From the NCBI GenBank assembly GCA_003695745.1, contig RFHW01000068.1:1-10750 (forward strand): a stretch of 10,750 nt of DNA. Direction: 5' to 3'. The position numbers were made by a program, and so were the translations under genes. The DNA is from Methanobacteriota archaeon. GTDB taxonomy: Archaea; Hydrothermarchaeota; Hydrothermarchaeia; Hydrothermarchaeales; SZUA-236. Under the pieces are notes generated by a model that saw only the letters and a list, made by a program, of their open reading frames with translations, made no database searches and had not been told where the DNA came from. How positions within the stretch are numbered: position 1 is the first letter of the stretch; each line of letters begins with the position of its first letter. Positions 4,443 through 10,750 of the stretch are shown piece by piece.

Positions 4443-5411
4443 ATGACCTTCACCATAGAGACACCGGCAGGCATATTGCAGTTGGACGAAAAGGGTGGTT
4501 TCTCTGGCTTCACCGGCTATGATGAGGATGAGGCTGTGGAGGGGATCTTGGGGAGATGGGCGGCTGACGCCTCTTTATCGGTGGAGGCCGCACGCTTTTT
4601 TGTGAAGGGCCTAAGAAGGCTTCTTGAGGAGGCAGGGATAGATCTGAAGGCGTATGTTGAGATCAGGCGCAGGGTGGCCTTCAAAGTGGCTGAAAGGCTT
4701 CTCCAGTCCATGCCAGGGGCGGATGAGCCCATAATACAGGCGGTGGCCATCCTTGAAACTGCGAGCCAGACCATAGGGCTCCTTGTGTCAAGGCTCATCT
4801 CCATGTGCGCCGCATACGGCCGGGCGATAGAGGCAGGGAACGGGAAGGCTGATGTGGCAGAGCTCCTTGAGGCCGCCGCATCCATACCATCCCCATTTGT
4901 GCATGGCCTCACAGCCCAGATAGGGGAGATGATGGAATATCGGGCCTCTGTGGAGTCAGAGCTGGAGGAGCTTATGAAGGCAAGGGCTCCTAACGTGGCC
5001 GGGGTCCTTGGACCGCTCCTCGGCGCAAAGCTCATATCCTCTGCAAGGGGTTTGGAGCAGCTTGCAAGGATGCCAGCATCCCGTATACAGGTCCTGGGCG
5101 CCGACCGCGCCATGTTCCGCCACCTGAGGGAAAGGGGAGCGCCGCCTAAACACGGGCTCATCTTCCAGCACCCCGCCATCTCCAGGTCGCCATGGTGGCA
5201 GCGTGGAAAGATCGCGAGGAGCCTTGCAGCCAAGACCGCCATTGCAGCGCGCCTTGACGCCTATTCAGGCGAGGATCGCTCTGAAGAGCTGAAAGAGGCT
5301 TTTCTCAGGAGGTATGAGGCCGTTAAGAAGACCTGTCAGGAGGAGCCTGCGAGGATGAGGATCATCAGGACCCAGAAGAGGAAGGGAAGGACCCGCAGGA
5401 GGAGAGGATGA
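4443..5411 (+). CDS. nop5: Nop5 (Nop56/58-like) C/D box RNP core protein
   Basis: This 322-residue scaffold of the box C/D guide RNP bridges L7Ae-bound kink-turn RNA and fibrillarin for 2'-O-methylation of rRNA and tRNA. The N-terminal fibrillarin-binding part (1-65) is short, and a helical coiled-coil region covers about 70-180. The Nop domain (about 182-275) is unmistakable: APNVAGVLGPLLGAKLISSA, then VLGADRAMFRHL, PPKHGLIFQHPAI and WWQRGKIARSLAAK. A lysine/arginine-rich tail (310-321) ends the protein. The usual GAEK motif in the Nop domain reads GADR (219-222), a conservative change. The overall length is somewhat short for archaeal Nop5. The stop overlaps the flpA start (ATGA at 5408), the usual archaeal gene pair. 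Confidence 0.95.
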   Translation: MTFTIETPAGILQLDEKGGFSGFTGYDEDEAVEGILGRWAADASLSVEAARFFVKGLRRLLEEAGIDLKAYVEIRRRVAFKVAERLLQSMPGADEPIIQAVAILETASQTIGLLVSRLISMCAAYGRAIEAGNGKADVAELLEAAASIPSPFVHGLTAQIGEMMEYRASVESELEELMKARAPNVAGVLGPLLGAKLISSARGLEQLARMPASRIQVLGADRAMFRHLRERGAPPKHGLIFQHPAISRSPWWQRGKIARSLAAKTAIAARLDAYSGEDRSEELKEAFLRRYEAVKKTCQEEPARMRIIRTQKRKGRTRRRRG

Positions 5412-6339: not shown

Positions 6340-7323
6340 TTACATCCCTTTAGACTGCGCTGGGCTCTCCCTCTGCCCGGAGGGCGGATCCAGCTCCGGC
6401 CTCACAACCCTTATGTACTCCCCCACTGCCTCCCGTGTGGTCCCCACCACAACCCTCCATCCCCTGTCTTTTTTCTCCAGAACCCCTGAGACCTCTATCA
6501 CCTCGCCCTCCATCGCCTGCCCTGCATAGGTATGGGTGTATGACAGGACCTCGTCAACAAGGTCATGGTCCACCAGATAGATGGAGGGCACATGGAAGGC
6601 CATGGACGCATCTGTCACCGTGCACATGAGCTTTACCGGGCCAACCGGTGTTGATGGTCTGAGCTTCACAGCATCATCCACAAGGAGGAGGTTGTAGATC
6701 GTTCCTTTGTAGACGCCGATGTTGCCCTTCCTCTTCTCATGCCAGAGAAAGTCCTCATGGGACAGCGCCCTCTCACCAGGGAACCGCTTCTCATAGTACC
6801 GCTGCCACTGCTCCTCGGTGAGGTTGCCGGCAAGCCCTGACTCCATGAGAGCCTCTCTTGCCCTGTGGAATTGGCGGACGCCGTAGACCACGAAATCTAT
6901 GTCTGAGGAGTCCCTGTGCATGTCCACGAGGAGGGAGCCTGTAACGCCCTTGCGCTCCTCAGGGACATCCTCCAGGAGCCTGCTCAGCCCCAGCGCCTTC
7001 ATTGCAAGGGGGTCGCCGGCTGCCTCTGCCTCCAGCTCCATGAGCCTCTGAGCAGGGCTGTAAACCTGCCGGATCGTCTCAGGTGGACAGCGCTGGAGGA
7101 GGCGGCCGCCGCGGAGGTGAAGGTGCTCAGGGGCATTCTCTCTGAGGTACTGGAAGGACTCCATGGTAGAGGCCACCTTCCTGTATGCCACGCCCCTGCG
7201 CATTCTGTCTCCCTGTGGATGTGGATAGTACCGCAGAAAGGCGATGTCCCCAGCAATGGCTGCGAAGAAAAGCCCTTTTTCTGTCTCCATAAAATCCCTT
7301 GGCCGGATAGCCTGCCGGTCCAT
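6340..7323 (-). CDS. Predicted archaeal nucleotidyltransferase (pol-beta-like fold)
   Basis: This 327-residue protein belongs to an archaeal family of predicted nucleotidyltransferases (I believe COG1665). An N-terminal domain (1-60: IRPRDFMETEKGLFFAAIAG, then RGVAYRKV) precedes the nucleotidyltransferase core. The core has Gly129-Ser130, then SSDIDFVVYG (139-148) with the metal-binding Asp141 and Asp143. The C-terminal third (about 225-310) is beta-rich and may be a substrate domain. The natural substrate is unknown and no toxin-antitoxin partner is next to it. I chose ATG at 7323 over TTG at 7329 because a minus-strand TATA box centred near 7350 predicts transcription start right at 7323-7326. 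It is divergent from the tubulin-like operon. Confidence 0.83.
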   Translation of the reverse strand: MDRQAIRPRDFMETEKGLFFAAIAGDIAFLRYYPHPQGDRMRRGVAYRKVASTMESFQYLRENAPEHLHLRGGRLLQRCPPETIRQVYSPAQRLMELEAEAAGDPLAMKALGLSRLLEDVPEERKGVTGSLLVDMHRDSSDIDFVVYGVRQFHRAREALMESGLAGNLTEEQWQRYYEKRFPGERALSHEDFLWHEKRKGNIGVYKGTIYNLLLVDDAVKLRPSTPVGPVKLMCTVTDASMAFHVPSIYLVDHDLVDEVLSYTHTYAGQAMEGEVIEVSGVLEKKDRGWRVVVGTTREAVGEYIRVVRPELDPPSGQRESPAQSKGM

Positions 7324-7344
7324 GTTCAAATCAATTTATGGAAA

Positions 7345-7357
7345 GGTTTATAAGACC
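7345..7357. promoter_or_regulatory. Symmetric TATA element shared by divergent genes
   Basis: GGTTTATAAGACC contains the palindrome TTATAA (7348-7353). Read leftward it is CTTATAAAC, about 27 nt before the ATG at 7323, fitting a leaderless nucleotidyltransferase message. Read rightward it predicts transcription start near 7375, giving a roughly 20-nt leader that includes the GGAGG at 7383-7387 of the tubulin-like gene. One element could serve both directions. Confidence 0.55.
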
Positions 7358-7363
7358 TCCGGC

Positions 7364-7375
7364 TTTATCTATAAA
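7364..7375. promoter_or_regulatory. Inverted AT repeat, second TATA or operator
   Basis: TTTAT (7364-7368) and ATAAA (7371-7375) form a perfect dyad around CT. As a rightward TATA box (CTATAAAC) it would start transcription at about 7397, exactly at the ATG, skipping the ribosome site. It is therefore either an alternative leaderless promoter or an operator overlapping the predicted transcription start. Confidence 0.35.
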
Positions 7376-7382
7376 CAGCTTT

Positions 7383-7387
7383 GGAGG
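7383..7387 (+). promoter_or_regulatory. Shine-Dalgarno site deciding the CetZ-like start
   Basis: GGAGG lies 9 nt before ATG 7397. The frame is open upstream to 7244, but that extension runs back through the promoter region and into the divergent gene. The site and the homology (MKTLVIGLGQAGGK) both fix the start at 7397. Confidence 0.75.
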
Positions 7388-7396
7388 ATAAATCAG

Positions 7397-8566
7397 ATGA
7401 AGACACTTGTTATCGGCTTAGGACAGGCAGGGGGCAAGATCGCTGACACATTCCTTGCAGACGATCGGAAAAGCCCTGTTCCGCACACCTTTGAGGCCAT
7501 AGCCGTGAACTCTGCCCTCTCAGACCTCACAGGTCTTGCCAACATCCCTGAGGAGGACAGGATACTCATAGGCGAGACCGTTGTGAAGGGCCATGGCGTT
7601 GGGGCTGACAACCGCCTTGGCGCCGAGATCGCTGAGGACGAGGCGGACGCGATACTTAACAGGGTCTCAAAGATCGGTGTGGCCGAGTTTGACGCCTTTC
7701 TCCTTGTGGCAGCCCTCGGCGGCGGCACCGGGAGCGGCGCCATCCCTGTTGTGGCAAAGCACCTCAAAGAGGTCTATGACGAGCCTGTATATGCCGTGGG
7801 GATCCTGCCTGCAGAGAACGAGGGCGACATCTACACCCTGAACGCCGCGCGGAGCCTGAAGACGCTTCTACCAAGCGCAGATGCGGTGATCCTCGTGGAC
7901 AACGGAACCTTCCTGCGCGGAGGCGAGAGCGTGAAAGAGGCCTATGAAAGGATCAACAGGGAGATCGTGAAGCGCATCGGGATCATCGCAAGGGCCGGTG
8001 AGGTGCGCGGCAGAAAGAGCGTGGCAGAGATGGTGGTGGACACCTCTGAGATCATAAACACCATGCGCACAGGAGGCATATGCAGCATAGGCTATGCCTC
8101 GGAACGGGTTTCTGTGAAGAAGAGGGGTTTCCTGTCCAGGCTGCTGTCCCTTTTTGTGGGCGGCAGGAGGGATCAGATTGGCAAGGCATCGCGCATACTC
8201 TCTGTGGTGAAACGGGCCACAAAGGGCAGGCTTCTGCTTCCCTGCGACTACCGGTCCGCCAACAAGGCCCTTATCGTGCTTGCAGGTCCGCCGAGCGAGC
8301 TTGACCGCAAGGGCATTGAGAAGGCGCGGCAGTGGCTTGAGCAGAACATATCAGGCGCTGAGGTCCGGGGAGGCGACTATCCCCTGCCGAAGAGCAGCTA
8401 TGTGGGCTGTGTCGTCTTGCTAGCAGGCATATCAAACGCCCCACGTGTCAGGTCGCTCCTTGAGCGGGCGAAGATCGTTCAGGAGAAGGTTGCCGAGGAG
8501 CCTAAGAGGGAGAGGGACATCGAAGCCCTTCTAAGCGATATTGACAAGCTGGGTGGAAAGACATAA
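7397..8566 (+). CDS. cetZ: CetZ-like tubulin/FtsZ-superfamily GTPase
   Basis: This 389-residue cytoplasmic cytoskeletal GTPase has a T1 loop GLGQAGGK (7-14) that is the CetZ form of the FtsZ/tubulin loop. NSALSDLTGLANIPEEDRI, KGHGVGAD (64-71) and the tubulin signature GGGTGSG (108-114) follow. LPAENEGDIYTLNAARSL (138-154) and the T7 region VVDTSEIINTMRTGG (213-227) with catalytic acid Glu218 also match CetZ. The second half retains GRLLLPCDY and GIEKARQWLE/EVRGGDYPLP typical of CetZ. A charged linker then leads to a C-terminal peptide DIEALLSDIDKL (374-385). CetZ proteins in haloarchaea control cell shape and motility, and the role here is inferred. It is the first gene of a three-gene operon, and the stop is 1 nt before the next ATG. 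Confidence 0.9.
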   Translation: MKTLVIGLGQAGGKIADTFLADDRKSPVPHTFEAIAVNSALSDLTGLANIPEEDRILIGETVVKGHGVGADNRLGAEIAEDEADAILNRVSKIGVAEFDAFLLVAALGGGTGSGAIPVVAKHLKEVYDEPVYAVGILPAENEGDIYTLNAARSLKTLLPSADAVILVDNGTFLRGGESVKEAYERINREIVKRIGIIARAGEVRGRKSVAEMVVDTSEIINTMRTGGICSIGYASERVSVKKRGFLSRLLSLFVGGRRDQIGKASRILSVVKRATKGRLLLPCDYRSANKALIVLAGPPSELDRKGIEKARQWLEQNISGAEVRGGDYPLPKSSYVGCVVLLAGISNAPRVRSLLERAKIVQEKVAEEPKRERDIEALLSDIDKLGGKT

Positions 8567-8567
8567 G

Positions 8568-9584
8568 ATGCTCTATCTTGTCGGTGTGGGAGGGGCCGGG
8601 TCAAAGATTGTTGACTCCTTCCACAGGAAGAATGTGGTGAAGAAGCTCATAAGCCGGATCCAGACGAGGGATCAGGAGCGTTTTGCAGGCATAGCGGCAG
8701 ACACCTCTGAAAAGATAAAGGCCCTTTCAAACATCCCGCCTGAGCACACGGTGATGATAGGCAAAAGCAGGGTAAAGGGACACGGCACCGGTGTGGACGT
8801 CTCGCTGGGACAGCGCATCGCCAAGGAGGAGCTGGGGCTTGTGATGAACCTCCTTCGAAAGACCGTGTCTGAGAAGCCCTGGGCGGTGGTGATCTTTGCA
8901 GGGCTTGGAGGCGGGACAGGGACAGGCGCCGCCCCGTTGATCGCCCGGAAGATAAAGGACACCTACCGGTGCAAGACCCTTGGCGTCTTCATCCTGCCCT
9001 CATCTGGCGAGGGGAGGGTGTATCAGAAAAACGCCTATGAGAACCTTGAGAAGGTGGCTGCAAGCGTGGACGGCTCCCTCTTCTTCGACAACAACGTGCT
9101 CACAGAGAAGGGTGAGGACATCCTTGCAGCCCATCAGATCCTGAACCAGCATATCCAGAGCTTCTTCCGTCTGGTGGATGAGGGTTTTCTGGAGCGGTGC
9201 TTCGGAAATTGGTCCACCGCAGGGTACTGTCGGCTTGACTCGGACCATGTGTCTGTGAAGGAGGTGGTGGAAAGGATACTCAGGGACCACATCTATCTGA
9301 GGTTCAACATGGAGCGGATCAGGAAGATGGTCTTTATAGCGCGAGGCGACCTTGACGCCCTCTTCGGCCACGACTTCGCCCAGGGATGGGCCAAGAACAA
9401 ATTCGGAGTGGACCTTGAATACCAGTTCTACGGGGACACAGGCGCGAGGGGCGTGGAGACCGGGCTTCTCATAGTTGGAACGAAGGATTTAAATGGTAGA
9501 TTCGATGATATAAAAGAGGTGAAGGGCGCCGGACAGGCCTCTGAGCTGGAGGCGCTGCTGAAGGACATAACCCCCATATTCTAA
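8568..9584 (+). CDS. Divergent tubulin/FtsZ-superfamily protein, probable partner of the CetZ-like protein
   Basis: This 338-residue paralogue of the upstream protein has T1 GVGGAGSKIVDSF (6-18, closer to FtsZ in GGAG), VKGHGTGVD (69-77), GGGTGTG (114-120), LPSSGEGRVYQKNAYENL (144-160) and FFDNNVL (172-178). GTP binding should therefore be intact. Against its neighbour it lacks about 17 residues between the conserved Asn193 and Val203-Asp204. No acid occurs at the position of the neighbour's catalytic Glu218, and the H8 region reads GFLERCFGNWSTAGY. The C-terminal domain is more diverged, and the end SELEALLKDITPIF resembles the neighbour's tail. ATG 8568 was chosen over an upstream in-frame start at 8541 because T1 begins right after it. 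Likely a poorly hydrolysing subunit (inference). Confidence 0.85.
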   Translation: MLYLVGVGGAGSKIVDSFHRKNVVKKLISRIQTRDQERFAGIAADTSEKIKALSNIPPEHTVMIGKSRVKGHGTGVDVSLGQRIAKEELGLVMNLLRKTVSEKPWAVVIFAGLGGGTGTGAAPLIARKIKDTYRCKTLGVFILPSSGEGRVYQKNAYENLEKVAASVDGSLFFDNNVLTEKGEDILAAHQILNQHIQSFFRLVDEGFLERCFGNWSTAGYCRLDSDHVSVKEVVERILRDHIYLRFNMERIRKMVFIARGDLDALFGHDFAQGWAKNKFGVDLEYQFYGDTGARGVETGLLIVGTKDLNGRFDDIKEVKGAGQASELEALLKDITPIF

Positions 9585-9589
9585 GGAGG
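9583..9589 (+). promoter_or_regulatory. Strong Shine-Dalgarno site of the membrane-anchored protein
   Basis: AAGGAGG overlaps the TAA stop of the preceding gene and lies 8 nt before ATG 9598. It selects that start over the out-of-frame ATG at 9591. It is the strongest ribosome site in the operon. Confidence 0.75.
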
Positions 9590-9597
9590 AATGAGCG

Positions 9598-10422
9598 ATG
9601 AACTATCAGGTTAGGATGCTGCTGACCCTGTCAGTTGTGTTGCTTGTCTCGATTGGCCTTTCCAATGCCGTTGAGAACGACTATCTCGCTGTTTCAGGGC
9701 AGCCCAAGATCACCCATACAGAGAAGATATACTCTGGCGACCCCTATGCCGCGGAGGTGAAGCTTGTGAGGGTGGGGATCATACCGAGGGAGGCGACTCT
9801 CAACGTCTCCACAGGCTCTGTGAACCCCATCATAAAGCTGAAGGTGGACGGCGGTGATGAGCAGACCTACACCTCCCAGTCGGTCATCCTGCCCCTGCCG
9901 CCGGATGGTGTGAGCGAGATAGAGGTGAAGATATCGGGCAACGCCCCCACCGTCACAACCGACAGGGAGGTGGAGATGTTCTCCATAAGCACCTATGTGG
10001 TCTATGATGATATGAACAAGGGGGATCAGCTGGAGATTGAAAGGAGCCTTAAGGTGACCAACCCTGAGATCGAGGATGCCCTGAGGTCCATTGCAGAGGC
10101 CAAGAGCAGGCTTATGGAGGCTGAGACAGCTATCTCGGATCTGAAGTCCCAGAACATTGACACCACCTCTCTTGAATCCCGGCTTGAGATCGCCAGGGAC
10201 ACCATCAGGGATGCCGAGCTTTCAAAGGAGAGGGGATACCCTATTGAGGCTAAGAGGCAGGCTGACAACGCCGTGAAGTCCCTTGAGGGCATAATCCAGG
10301 ATGCCTCGGCCAGATCCAAAACCGTCTATGACATAAAGAAATACGCCGCCATTGCGGTGGCGGTCATTGTCGCTATCATCGGCATCTCTGTGCTGAGGCG
10401 CAAGCGAGAGGAGCTGGGCTAA
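9598..10422 (+). CDS. Secreted, C-terminally anchored surface protein with helical stalk
   Basis: I do not recognise a named family, though the layout resembles archaeal COG1361/S-layer-related surface proteins. A signal peptide is visible (basic start, hydrophobic 7-22, likely cut after SNA at 24). A beta-rich domain covers about 28-155 with one N-glycosylation sequon (NVS, 69-71). A charged, Ala/Glu/Arg/Lys-rich helix (about 156-245) includes AEAKSRLMEAETAISDLKSQ, and SLESRLEIARDTIRDAE suggests a coiled-coil stalk. One membrane helix (249-266) and a short basic cytoplasmic tail RRKREELG close the protein. The bulk therefore lies outside the cell with only about 8 residues inside. It is the third gene of the tubulin-like operon, 13 nt after the second, with a strong ribosome site. 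Topology is well supported and a link to the cytoskeletal proteins is inferred from the operon. Confidence 0.78.
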   Translation: MNYQVRMLLTLSVVLLVSIGLSNAVENDYLAVSGQPKITHTEKIYSGDPYAAEVKLVRVGIIPREATLNVSTGSVNPIIKLKVDGGDEQTYTSQSVILPLPPDGVSEIEVKISGNAPTVTTDREVEMFSISTYVVYDDMNKGDQLEIERSLKVTNPEIEDALRSIAEAKSRLMEAETAISDLKSQNIDTTSLESRLEIARDTIRDAELSKERGYPIEAKRQADNAVKSLEGIIQDASARSKTVYDIKKYAAIAVAVIVAIIGISVLRRKREELG

Positions 10423-10534: not shown

Positions 10535-10750
10535 ATGAATGTCATCGCAGCCTCTACACTGGCCTTTCTCACAAAACCCCTCTCCGAGGCAATAGAAGAT
10601 GTGGCAGCGCTCGGGTTCAGGGGTATCGAGATATACTATGAAGGGGCTCATGCCCTCTCTGAAAGAGAGCTCAGGGACCTGCTGTCGCCCTATGACCTCA
10701 GACCCTTTCTCCACGCCCCCTTCTCAGACCTGAACCTGGCAAGCTTCAAC
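10535..10750 (+). CDS. Sugar phosphate isomerase/epimerase-like TIM barrel (partial, runs off right edge)
   Basis: Only the first 72 residues are present. They start MNVIAASTLAFLTKPLSEAI and continue with a first beta-alpha unit ending GFRGIEIYYEG. The second strand PFLHAPFSDLNLASFN is the typical barrel strand of AP endonuclease-2/xylose isomerase-like proteins (COG1082), in which the His and nearby acids line the active site. The family includes sugar epimerases, isomerases and endonuclease IV. The N-terminal fragment cannot separate these, but HAPFSDLN is what I associate with the archaeal uncharacterised sugar phosphate isomerase group. ATG 10535 was chosen from TATA spacing, with 10517 as the alternative. 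It follows the operon after a 112-nt gap and is probably a separate transcript. Confidence 0.8.
   Translation, partial: MNVIAASTLAFLTKPLSEAIEDVAALGFRGIEIYYEGAHALSERELRDLLSPYDLRPFLHAPFSDLNLASFN

Follow-up and report, generated by a model that had tools for sequence, protein, structure and literature searches.

What might be built by two unequal tubulin-family proteins whose genes are directly adjacent and are followed by the gene for a predicted membrane protein? The question is raised by a 10,750-nucleotide (nt) stretch of DNA from a member of the Hydrothermarchaeota (GenBank assembly GCA_003695745.1, contig RFHW01000068.1), hereafter the window, which is the whole of contig C86 in this genome of 1.28 Mb (G000, 89.7% complete). 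Genes A, B and C lie adjacent on its + strand within positions 7397-10422, with gaps of 1 nt between A and B and 13 nt between B and C, as a first-pass annotation of the window had placed them. A-B-C(-D), in which D is a fourth gene described below, is a conserved operon of Hydrothermarchaeota. Our comparisons indicate that A is a true CetZ, the archaeal shape-controlling relative of tubulin, with a catalytic glutamate in its T7 loop, and that B is a divergent CetZ-type protein and not an FtsZ or a tubulin. Genes of the C family are widespread neighbours of cetZ that have been overlooked. The features of the locus are listed below (aa, amino acids).

7347-7387, + strand: putative promoter and ribosome-binding region ahead of A, read by eye from the sequence; TATA-like TTTATAAG at 7347-7354, GGAGG at 7383-7387
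7397-8566, + strand: gene A, CetZ, 389 aa; assigned from Pfam CetZ_C and Tubulin, the match to CetZ1 (4b46) and the tree
8048-8050, + strand: codon for Glu218 of A, equivalent by alignment to the catalytic acid of the T7 loop
8513-8563, + strand: C-terminal peptide of A, RDIEALLSDIDKLGGKT, similar to the tail of B
8568-9584, + strand: gene B, reduced CetZ-type protein, 338 aa; assigned from Pfam Tubulin, fold ranking and profile comparison
9537-9581, + strand: C-terminal peptide of B, ASELEALLKDITPIF, modelled with low confidence
9598-10422, + strand: gene C, putative single-pass membrane stalk protein, 274 aa; assigned from sequence features, the predicted model and homologues adjoining cetZ
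10342-10395, + strand: predicted transmembrane helix of C, about residues 249-266; hydrophobic stretch in the sequence and helix in the model
10396-10419, + strand: predicted cytosolic tail of C, RRKREELG, from the sequence

Read by eye, the GGAGG at 7383-7387 serves the ATG at 7397, so that a longer open reading frame (ORF) opening at 7244 is needless.

Conservation of the operon and a fourth member

The phylum was sampled with 23 genomes. B was present at full length in 18 of them and as a contig-cut gene in G005; among the 23, it was not found in G016, G019, G020 and G022. A CetZ gene lay directly upstream of B in all 19 genomes with B, at a gap of 0-14 nt, three times as a contig-cut remnant (G002, G009 and G011). 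C followed B at a gap of 4-60 nt in each of the 17 genomes with room for it. Adjacency of A and B in 19 of the 23 genomes rules out an accident of one genome, and the tight coupling noticed in the window proved to be conserved. G022, which belongs to another family, had the order A-C-D without B, and G020 had A-C up to the end of its contig.

Of the 17 genomes with the order B-C, 15 had D downstream of C (within 60 nt in 13, farther away in G006 and G012). D was absent after C in G009, and in the window genome it lies on contig C122 (G000:C122). The three-gene operon of the first-pass annotation thus holds for A-B-C, while D had been overlooked. A continuation into D at the end of the window was rejected, since no tubulin-like frame follows C there and D lies on C122. 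The D protein of the window genome matched Tubulin at 63.6 bits and CetZ_C at 82.8 bits, and that of G022 matched the Tubulin domain only. D keeps the T7 acid and the residues of helix H10, and its GTP glycine loop is altered; it classifies as a divergent CetZ, the fourth member of the operon. On contigs C122 and C46 of the window genome (L055, L056), D and a contig-cut A-like paralogue lie near isopropylmalate/acetolactate synthase-like genes (by eye). Such genes flank the whole operon in several relatives, and the presence of D and the A-like paralogue in this neighbourhood suggests that the operon is split in the window genome.

Assignment of A and B

A matched Pfam CetZ_C at 225 bits and Tubulin at 104 bits, both over the curated cut-offs, and the CetZ1 structure 4b46 at E 2.8e-115. 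Trees were quick builds with Shimodaira-Hasegawa-like approximate likelihood ratio test (SH-aLRT) support only and no eukaryotic or Asgard tubulin, and B, D and G205_TSF2/TSF3 were long branches in them. In the first tree, A fell inside the canonical CetZ fork (51 rows, SH-aLRT 98), apart from FtsZ. In the second it grouped with a paralogue, A2 (SH-aLRT 96), the deeper order not being settled. A C-terminal peptide of PLF/SLF type was present in 77 of 82 CetZ proteins scoring >400 bits. A2, a second CetZ paralogue of several phylum members, is convergent with genes for large proteins that by eye look secreted and single-pass (L154:4076-6981; L156:1693-5168; L205:3-2948; L206:3359-6565); the one checked, at L154 (576 aa), has PKD domains.

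B matched Pfam Tubulin at 104.6 bits with its GTP loops present. CetZ_C was not listed for B by Pfam at E<=0.01, and the C-terminal part of B was reached only by profile-profile comparison with A. The predicted structure and the fold ranking indicate that B keeps the whole CetZ fold. Fold ranking, sequence search and profile comparison all placed it nearest to CetZ, which disfavours an FtsZ or a true tubulin; the earlier description of B as a divergent tubulin/FtsZ homologue has to be revised in this sense. The closest fold and sequence matches of both A and B are CetZ and place them outside tubulin proper. In the first tree B stood outside the canonical CetZ clade (98), on a long branch, and B and D each formed one clade (SH-aLRT 100 and 98). 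The second tree was without resolution for B, and its weak joining of B with G205_TSF2/TSF3 (82-90) was not relied on, these being long branches.

No full-length B was present in the 38 genomes of other phyla covered by a non-exhaustive search (best match 84.5 bits, a CetZ). In a database search, in which the 7999 candidates sharing most words were scored, some copies of B were labelled Candidatus Pyrohabitans or Hydrothermarchaeales. B has so far been found only in Hydrothermarchaeota. The B gene of G004 (L010, G004:C221:8513-9520) contains one in-frame TAG, reflecting damage or sequencing error. It was omitted from the B alignment (A1) together with the contig-cut B of G005; the contig-cut A of G002, G009 and G011 were omitted from the A alignment (A3), the contig-cut D of G002, G004 and G018 and the divergent D of G022 from the D alignment (A4), and P0063 (184 aa) from alignment A5.

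The T7 segment of A and B

Glu218 of CetZ1 is presumably the catalytic acid of the T7 loop. An acid occupied this column in all 18 A rows (16 Glu, 2 Asp), in 15 of 15 other canonical CetZ proteins and in 14 of 14 D rows. Among B proteins it was acidic in 6 of 17 rows and non-acidic in 11; in a wider set of 62, it was acidic in 22 and non-acidic in 40. The window pair has Glu in A and Phe in B. Relative to A, every one of the 17 B rows has lost 17 residues just before this column, ahead of helix H8, and B also lacks the stretch of the M-loop, which is used for lateral contacts. The T7-H8 segment was the least conserved of the segments compared in B (0.39 vs 0.58 overall) and was above average in D (0.735 vs 0.635). 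The GTP loops of B were well conserved (0.72-0.98), and its helix H10 keeps a G..FA..W pattern.

In alpha/beta-tubulin the T7 position is a glutamate in one subunit and a lysine in the other, so that one GTP site is silent, and Asgard pairs have been described with the same catalytic/silent partition (PMC13394414, PMC13371889; these and the papers below are cited for the portions available). The A/B partition appears to be like the catalytic/non-catalytic split of alpha/beta-tubulin, through a different change. The description of A and B as unequal tubulin-family proteins is upheld, and its comparison with alpha/beta-tubulin gains support from a T7 acid that is constant in A and missing from 11 of 17, and from 40 of 62, B proteins.

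The C protein and its family beside cetZ in other archaea

C begins with a hydrophobic, signal-like stretch (by eye). Its model has a beta domain at about residues 30-154 and helices at 156-184, 190-211 and 215-273, and a C-terminal membrane helix is followed by RRKREELG. The N-terminal stretch, C-terminal helix and basic tail are as expected of the secreted single-pass surface protein that had been read from the third gene. No Pfam or NCBIfam family matched C, and a fold search turned up nothing beyond generic Ig-like folds at low TM-scores, from which no function was drawn. Pfam found no SepF domain in C; the SepF of this genome is at G000:C57. The ELG terminus was present in 15 of 17 phylum rows, the exceptions being G008 and G021.

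In the phylum of G028, a profile of C had matches at E<=1e-4 in 136 of 392 genomes; many of these matches were weak and perhaps due to coiled coil only. This phylum includes Methanoplanus, the C protein of G481 being identical to a protein of Methanoplanus sp. FWC-SCC4. Homology of C across groups was supported by hhalign (99.9% and 99.5%). Forty regions with a C hit were read after selection by hand: 20 came from the top 29 profile hits, 19 from lower ranks and one (L268) from a separate search. In 34 of the 40, CetZ immediately preceded C on the same strand, once as a contig-cut piece. Of the remainder, L242 ran into a contig end, C lay away from cetZ in L258 and L259 (family f16), and no CetZ was in view in L262, L268 and L269; L268 and L269 were omitted from the widened C profile. 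The pairing was also assessed from the CetZ side in 51 distinct loci, partly from the same genomes (27 new top-scoring loci, 8 from other searches and 16 hand-picked for spread; four duplicates omitted). C was beside CetZ in 39 of the 50 loci with room for it (37 by script, G318 by eye, and G205 with one gene between; L309 had no room). The script-found cases include the contig-cut L304 and the partial L308 (29 bits). In L308 (G701:C7), C beside CetZ is a partial open frame with a tail match farther on, as after a frameshift.

We take f16 to be Archaeoglobaceae, L297-L301 haloarchaea and G058 Korarchaeum, from context. C follows cetZ in L297-L299, and the next gene is cofC-like in L298 and L299. 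A cofC-like gene comes directly after cetZ in L300, which lacks C (gene names from PMC9856176 and our own reading). G205, from another phylum, has a CetZ gene, a second CetZ-type gene and then C (L199:3929-7192), a layout like A-B-C that is perhaps of independent origin. Its second CetZ-type protein has Ser at the T7 acid column.

The 89 distinct C proteins ended in [DE]xL(G) (68), a KRG[IV]Y-like motif (10), PPLG (2), another L or LG (7) or in neither kind (2). Tails had a median of 10 residues and a median net charge of +2 (range -1 to 9). Among 49 relatives of one C, source names were mostly hypothetical or uncharacterized, and one was named DivIVA. Pairing of A with C is wider than pairing of A with B: G022 has A-C-D without B, and many other archaea have A-C only. 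It thus looks as if C is primarily a partner of CetZ and not of the A/B pair.

A proposed membrane-tethered CetZ cytoskeleton and its alternatives

Genes, order, conservation, motif loss and the sequence features of C are directly observed, and the fold of B is a structure prediction; a polymer, a tether, a stoichiometry and a function in cell shape are inferred. The reading that we favour, tentatively and at slightly less than an even chance, is that the operon encodes a membrane-tethered CetZ cytoskeleton in which A forms the filament, C is the tether, B co-assembles and D modulates. By homology to CetZ1 and CetZ2, A would be a GTP-hydrolysing filament former. C would cross the membrane once, with its beta domain and a coiled-coil stalk directed outward and its short basic [DE]xL(G) tail in the cytoplasm, where the tail may bind the CetZ filament or the acidic-hydrophobic C-terminal peptide of CetZ; in this proposal, C is what ties CetZ filaments to the envelope. 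B would most likely co-assemble with A. As the T7 catalytic segment is missing from B, one orientation of the A/B contact would be unable to hydrolyse GTP, as at the N-site of alpha/beta-tubulin. We consider a polymer of unequal A and B subunits plausible, and D is probably a modulator of the same filament. A bolder form of this proposal, in which an obligate catalytic/non-catalytic A/B heterodimer evolved among CetZ-type proteins independently of tubulins in Hydrothermarchaeota and hangs on C, a trans-envelope stalk that would be the ancestral and widespread membrane receptor for CetZ filaments, we regard as unlikely.

Several observations weigh against a tethered A/B filament. The T7 column is acidic in 22 of 62 B proteins, in an alignment that is uncertain beside the deletion, and the T7-H8 segment of A is itself slightly below the A average (0.824 vs 0.852). 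The absence of the M-loop stretch from B would suit a cap or a regulator no less than a subunit of a polymer. The A-C-D order of G022 implies that B is dispensable for the A-C system. C was not beside CetZ in 11 of the 50 loci (seven of family f16, L278, L279, L300 and L301). Its tails vary, being KRG[IV]Y-like in 10 of 89 proteins and of neither kind in G008 and G205, and we know of no demonstrated binding of CetZ to a C-type tail.

With its GTP face intact and its opposite face lacking the T7 segment, B could only start or end a filament, and it might be a minus-end nucleator or cap, base-plate-like and perhaps held at the membrane by C. The loss before H8 in all 17 B rows with retention of the GTP loops would fit such a role, as would the missing M-loop stretch. 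Helix H10, however, lies on the same face as T7, and in B it retains its pattern as if that face were still used; we think a cap unlikely.

A different view is that C acts at the surface as a sensor or adhesin and is transcribed together with cetZ because both serve cell shape, its tail being a positive-inside signal only. Basic residues by a membrane helix are the usual topology signal, and the sizes of C differ widely, from 261 to >400 aa. We find this view doubtful, since a WDELG or EELG end is kept, beyond basic charge, between C groups that are ~21% identical. Slightly less probable still is that B and D are regulatory GTP-binding relatives outside the filament, controlling A or C. Their conservation is lower (mean column identity 60% for B and 59% for D vs 82% for A) and B lacks the M-loop stretch, but an allosteric regulator would not need the whole fold that B keeps, nor the H10 residues kept by both. 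Drift of B and D as tandem CetZ duplicates without shared function would agree with their fast divergence and with the detachment of D from the operon in the window genome, yet it is very improbable and already disfavoured by their conservation: each forms one clade, its GTP-loop residues do not vary across the phylum, and synteny has been kept. A division ring was rejected as the function of the locus, as two FtsZ-type genes and SepF are located elsewhere in the genome.

Neighbouring genes and other observations

The other genes of the window matched DUF498, ThrRS, PMT_2, DCD, Nop and fibrillarin (Pfam), and one was unmatched. This last (6340-7329, - strand, 329 aa) is divergent from A and belongs to no known family; a G001 gene at the equivalent place (L037:5734-6672) has a start that is similar by eye. 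The Nop5/Nop56-like gene (4443-5411, + strand, 322 aa) matched its NCBIfam model only from residue 153 onward. After C, an isomerase-like ORF start (10535-10750, + strand, by eye) reaches the contig end.

Further tubulin-superfamily arrangements were seen elsewhere. G058 has five such genes in one same-strand cluster with small genes between them (L158:6591-12157). Four genomes (L329, L330, L331 and L334) encode a second CetZ-like protein that carries a long extension at its C-terminus and reaches 591 to >900 aa; one of these genomes, that of L331 (G481), is Methanoplanus.

Relation to known systems and significance

CetZ1 and CetZ2 of Haloferax volcanii (PDB 4b46, 4b45) have no B/D-type operon partner described in the available portion of PMC9856176, and B differs from both in its missing T7 segment and M-loop stretch. 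AtubA/B of Asgard archaea and the alpha/beta-tubulin of Heimdallarchaeales are likewise paired, one with and one without the T7 acid, and AtubA/B are coded in an operon, as A/B are here (PMC13394414, PMC13371889). The Asgard pairs are tubulins with demonstrated heterodimers, whereas A/B are CetZ-type and known here from genes; the silent subunit has Lys in the Heimdallarchaeales pair, as against a deletion and not a clean swap in B. For the Asgard tubulins, convergent evolution of the catalytic/non-catalytic split has been suggested (PMC13394414). Prosthecobacter BtubA/B/C also combine two tubulin-superfamily genes with a third gene in an operon, but BtubC is kinesin-light-chain-like, C is a putative membrane stalk without a Pfam match, and the tubulin types differ (PMC9871819). 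The quasi-tandem Halo.Tub genes are similarly close tubulin-like paralogues, and archaeal tubulin-like groups have coiled-coil neighbours. In that study, no other tubulin/FtsZ protein was matched by the model of the Halo.Tub C-terminus (PMC9871819), whereas A is a canonical CetZ.

The presence of CetZ in Hydrothermarchaeota has been reported (PMC9871819). Neighbourhoods of cetZ were found to have little in common, whether within or between Archaeoglobales, Methanomicrobiales and Methanosarcinales, with the exception of four gene families common to those of Methanosarcinales (PMC9856176). C is unnamed in the available main text of PMC9856176 and PMC9871819; Table S2 of the former, which gives the genes per region, may list it as an uncharacterised arCOG. 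CetZ also occurs beside type IV pili (Thermococcales, halobacterial cetZ2), whereas Pfam detected no pilin or PilB/PilC genes adjoining cetZ in the window. FtsZ-SepF resembles the proposed tether in that a dedicated partner anchors an archaeal tubulin-family filament at the membrane; C differs from SepF in lacking a SepF match, in its predicted crossing of the membrane and in its predicted outer domain.

We know of no established route by which CetZ gets to the membrane and envelope. C, which has a single predicted membrane helix and a conserved end on the predicted cytosolic side, is a candidate for the CetZ-membrane link, and one that could be deleted in cultured organisms. It stands beside cetZ in methanogens and Hydrothermarchaeota and, as genome context suggests, in Archaeoglobus-type archaea and some haloarchaea. 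The A/B pair may be a further case of a catalytic/non-catalytic split, and the pairing of C with cetZ points to an overlooked tie of the archaeal cytoskeleton to the cell surface.

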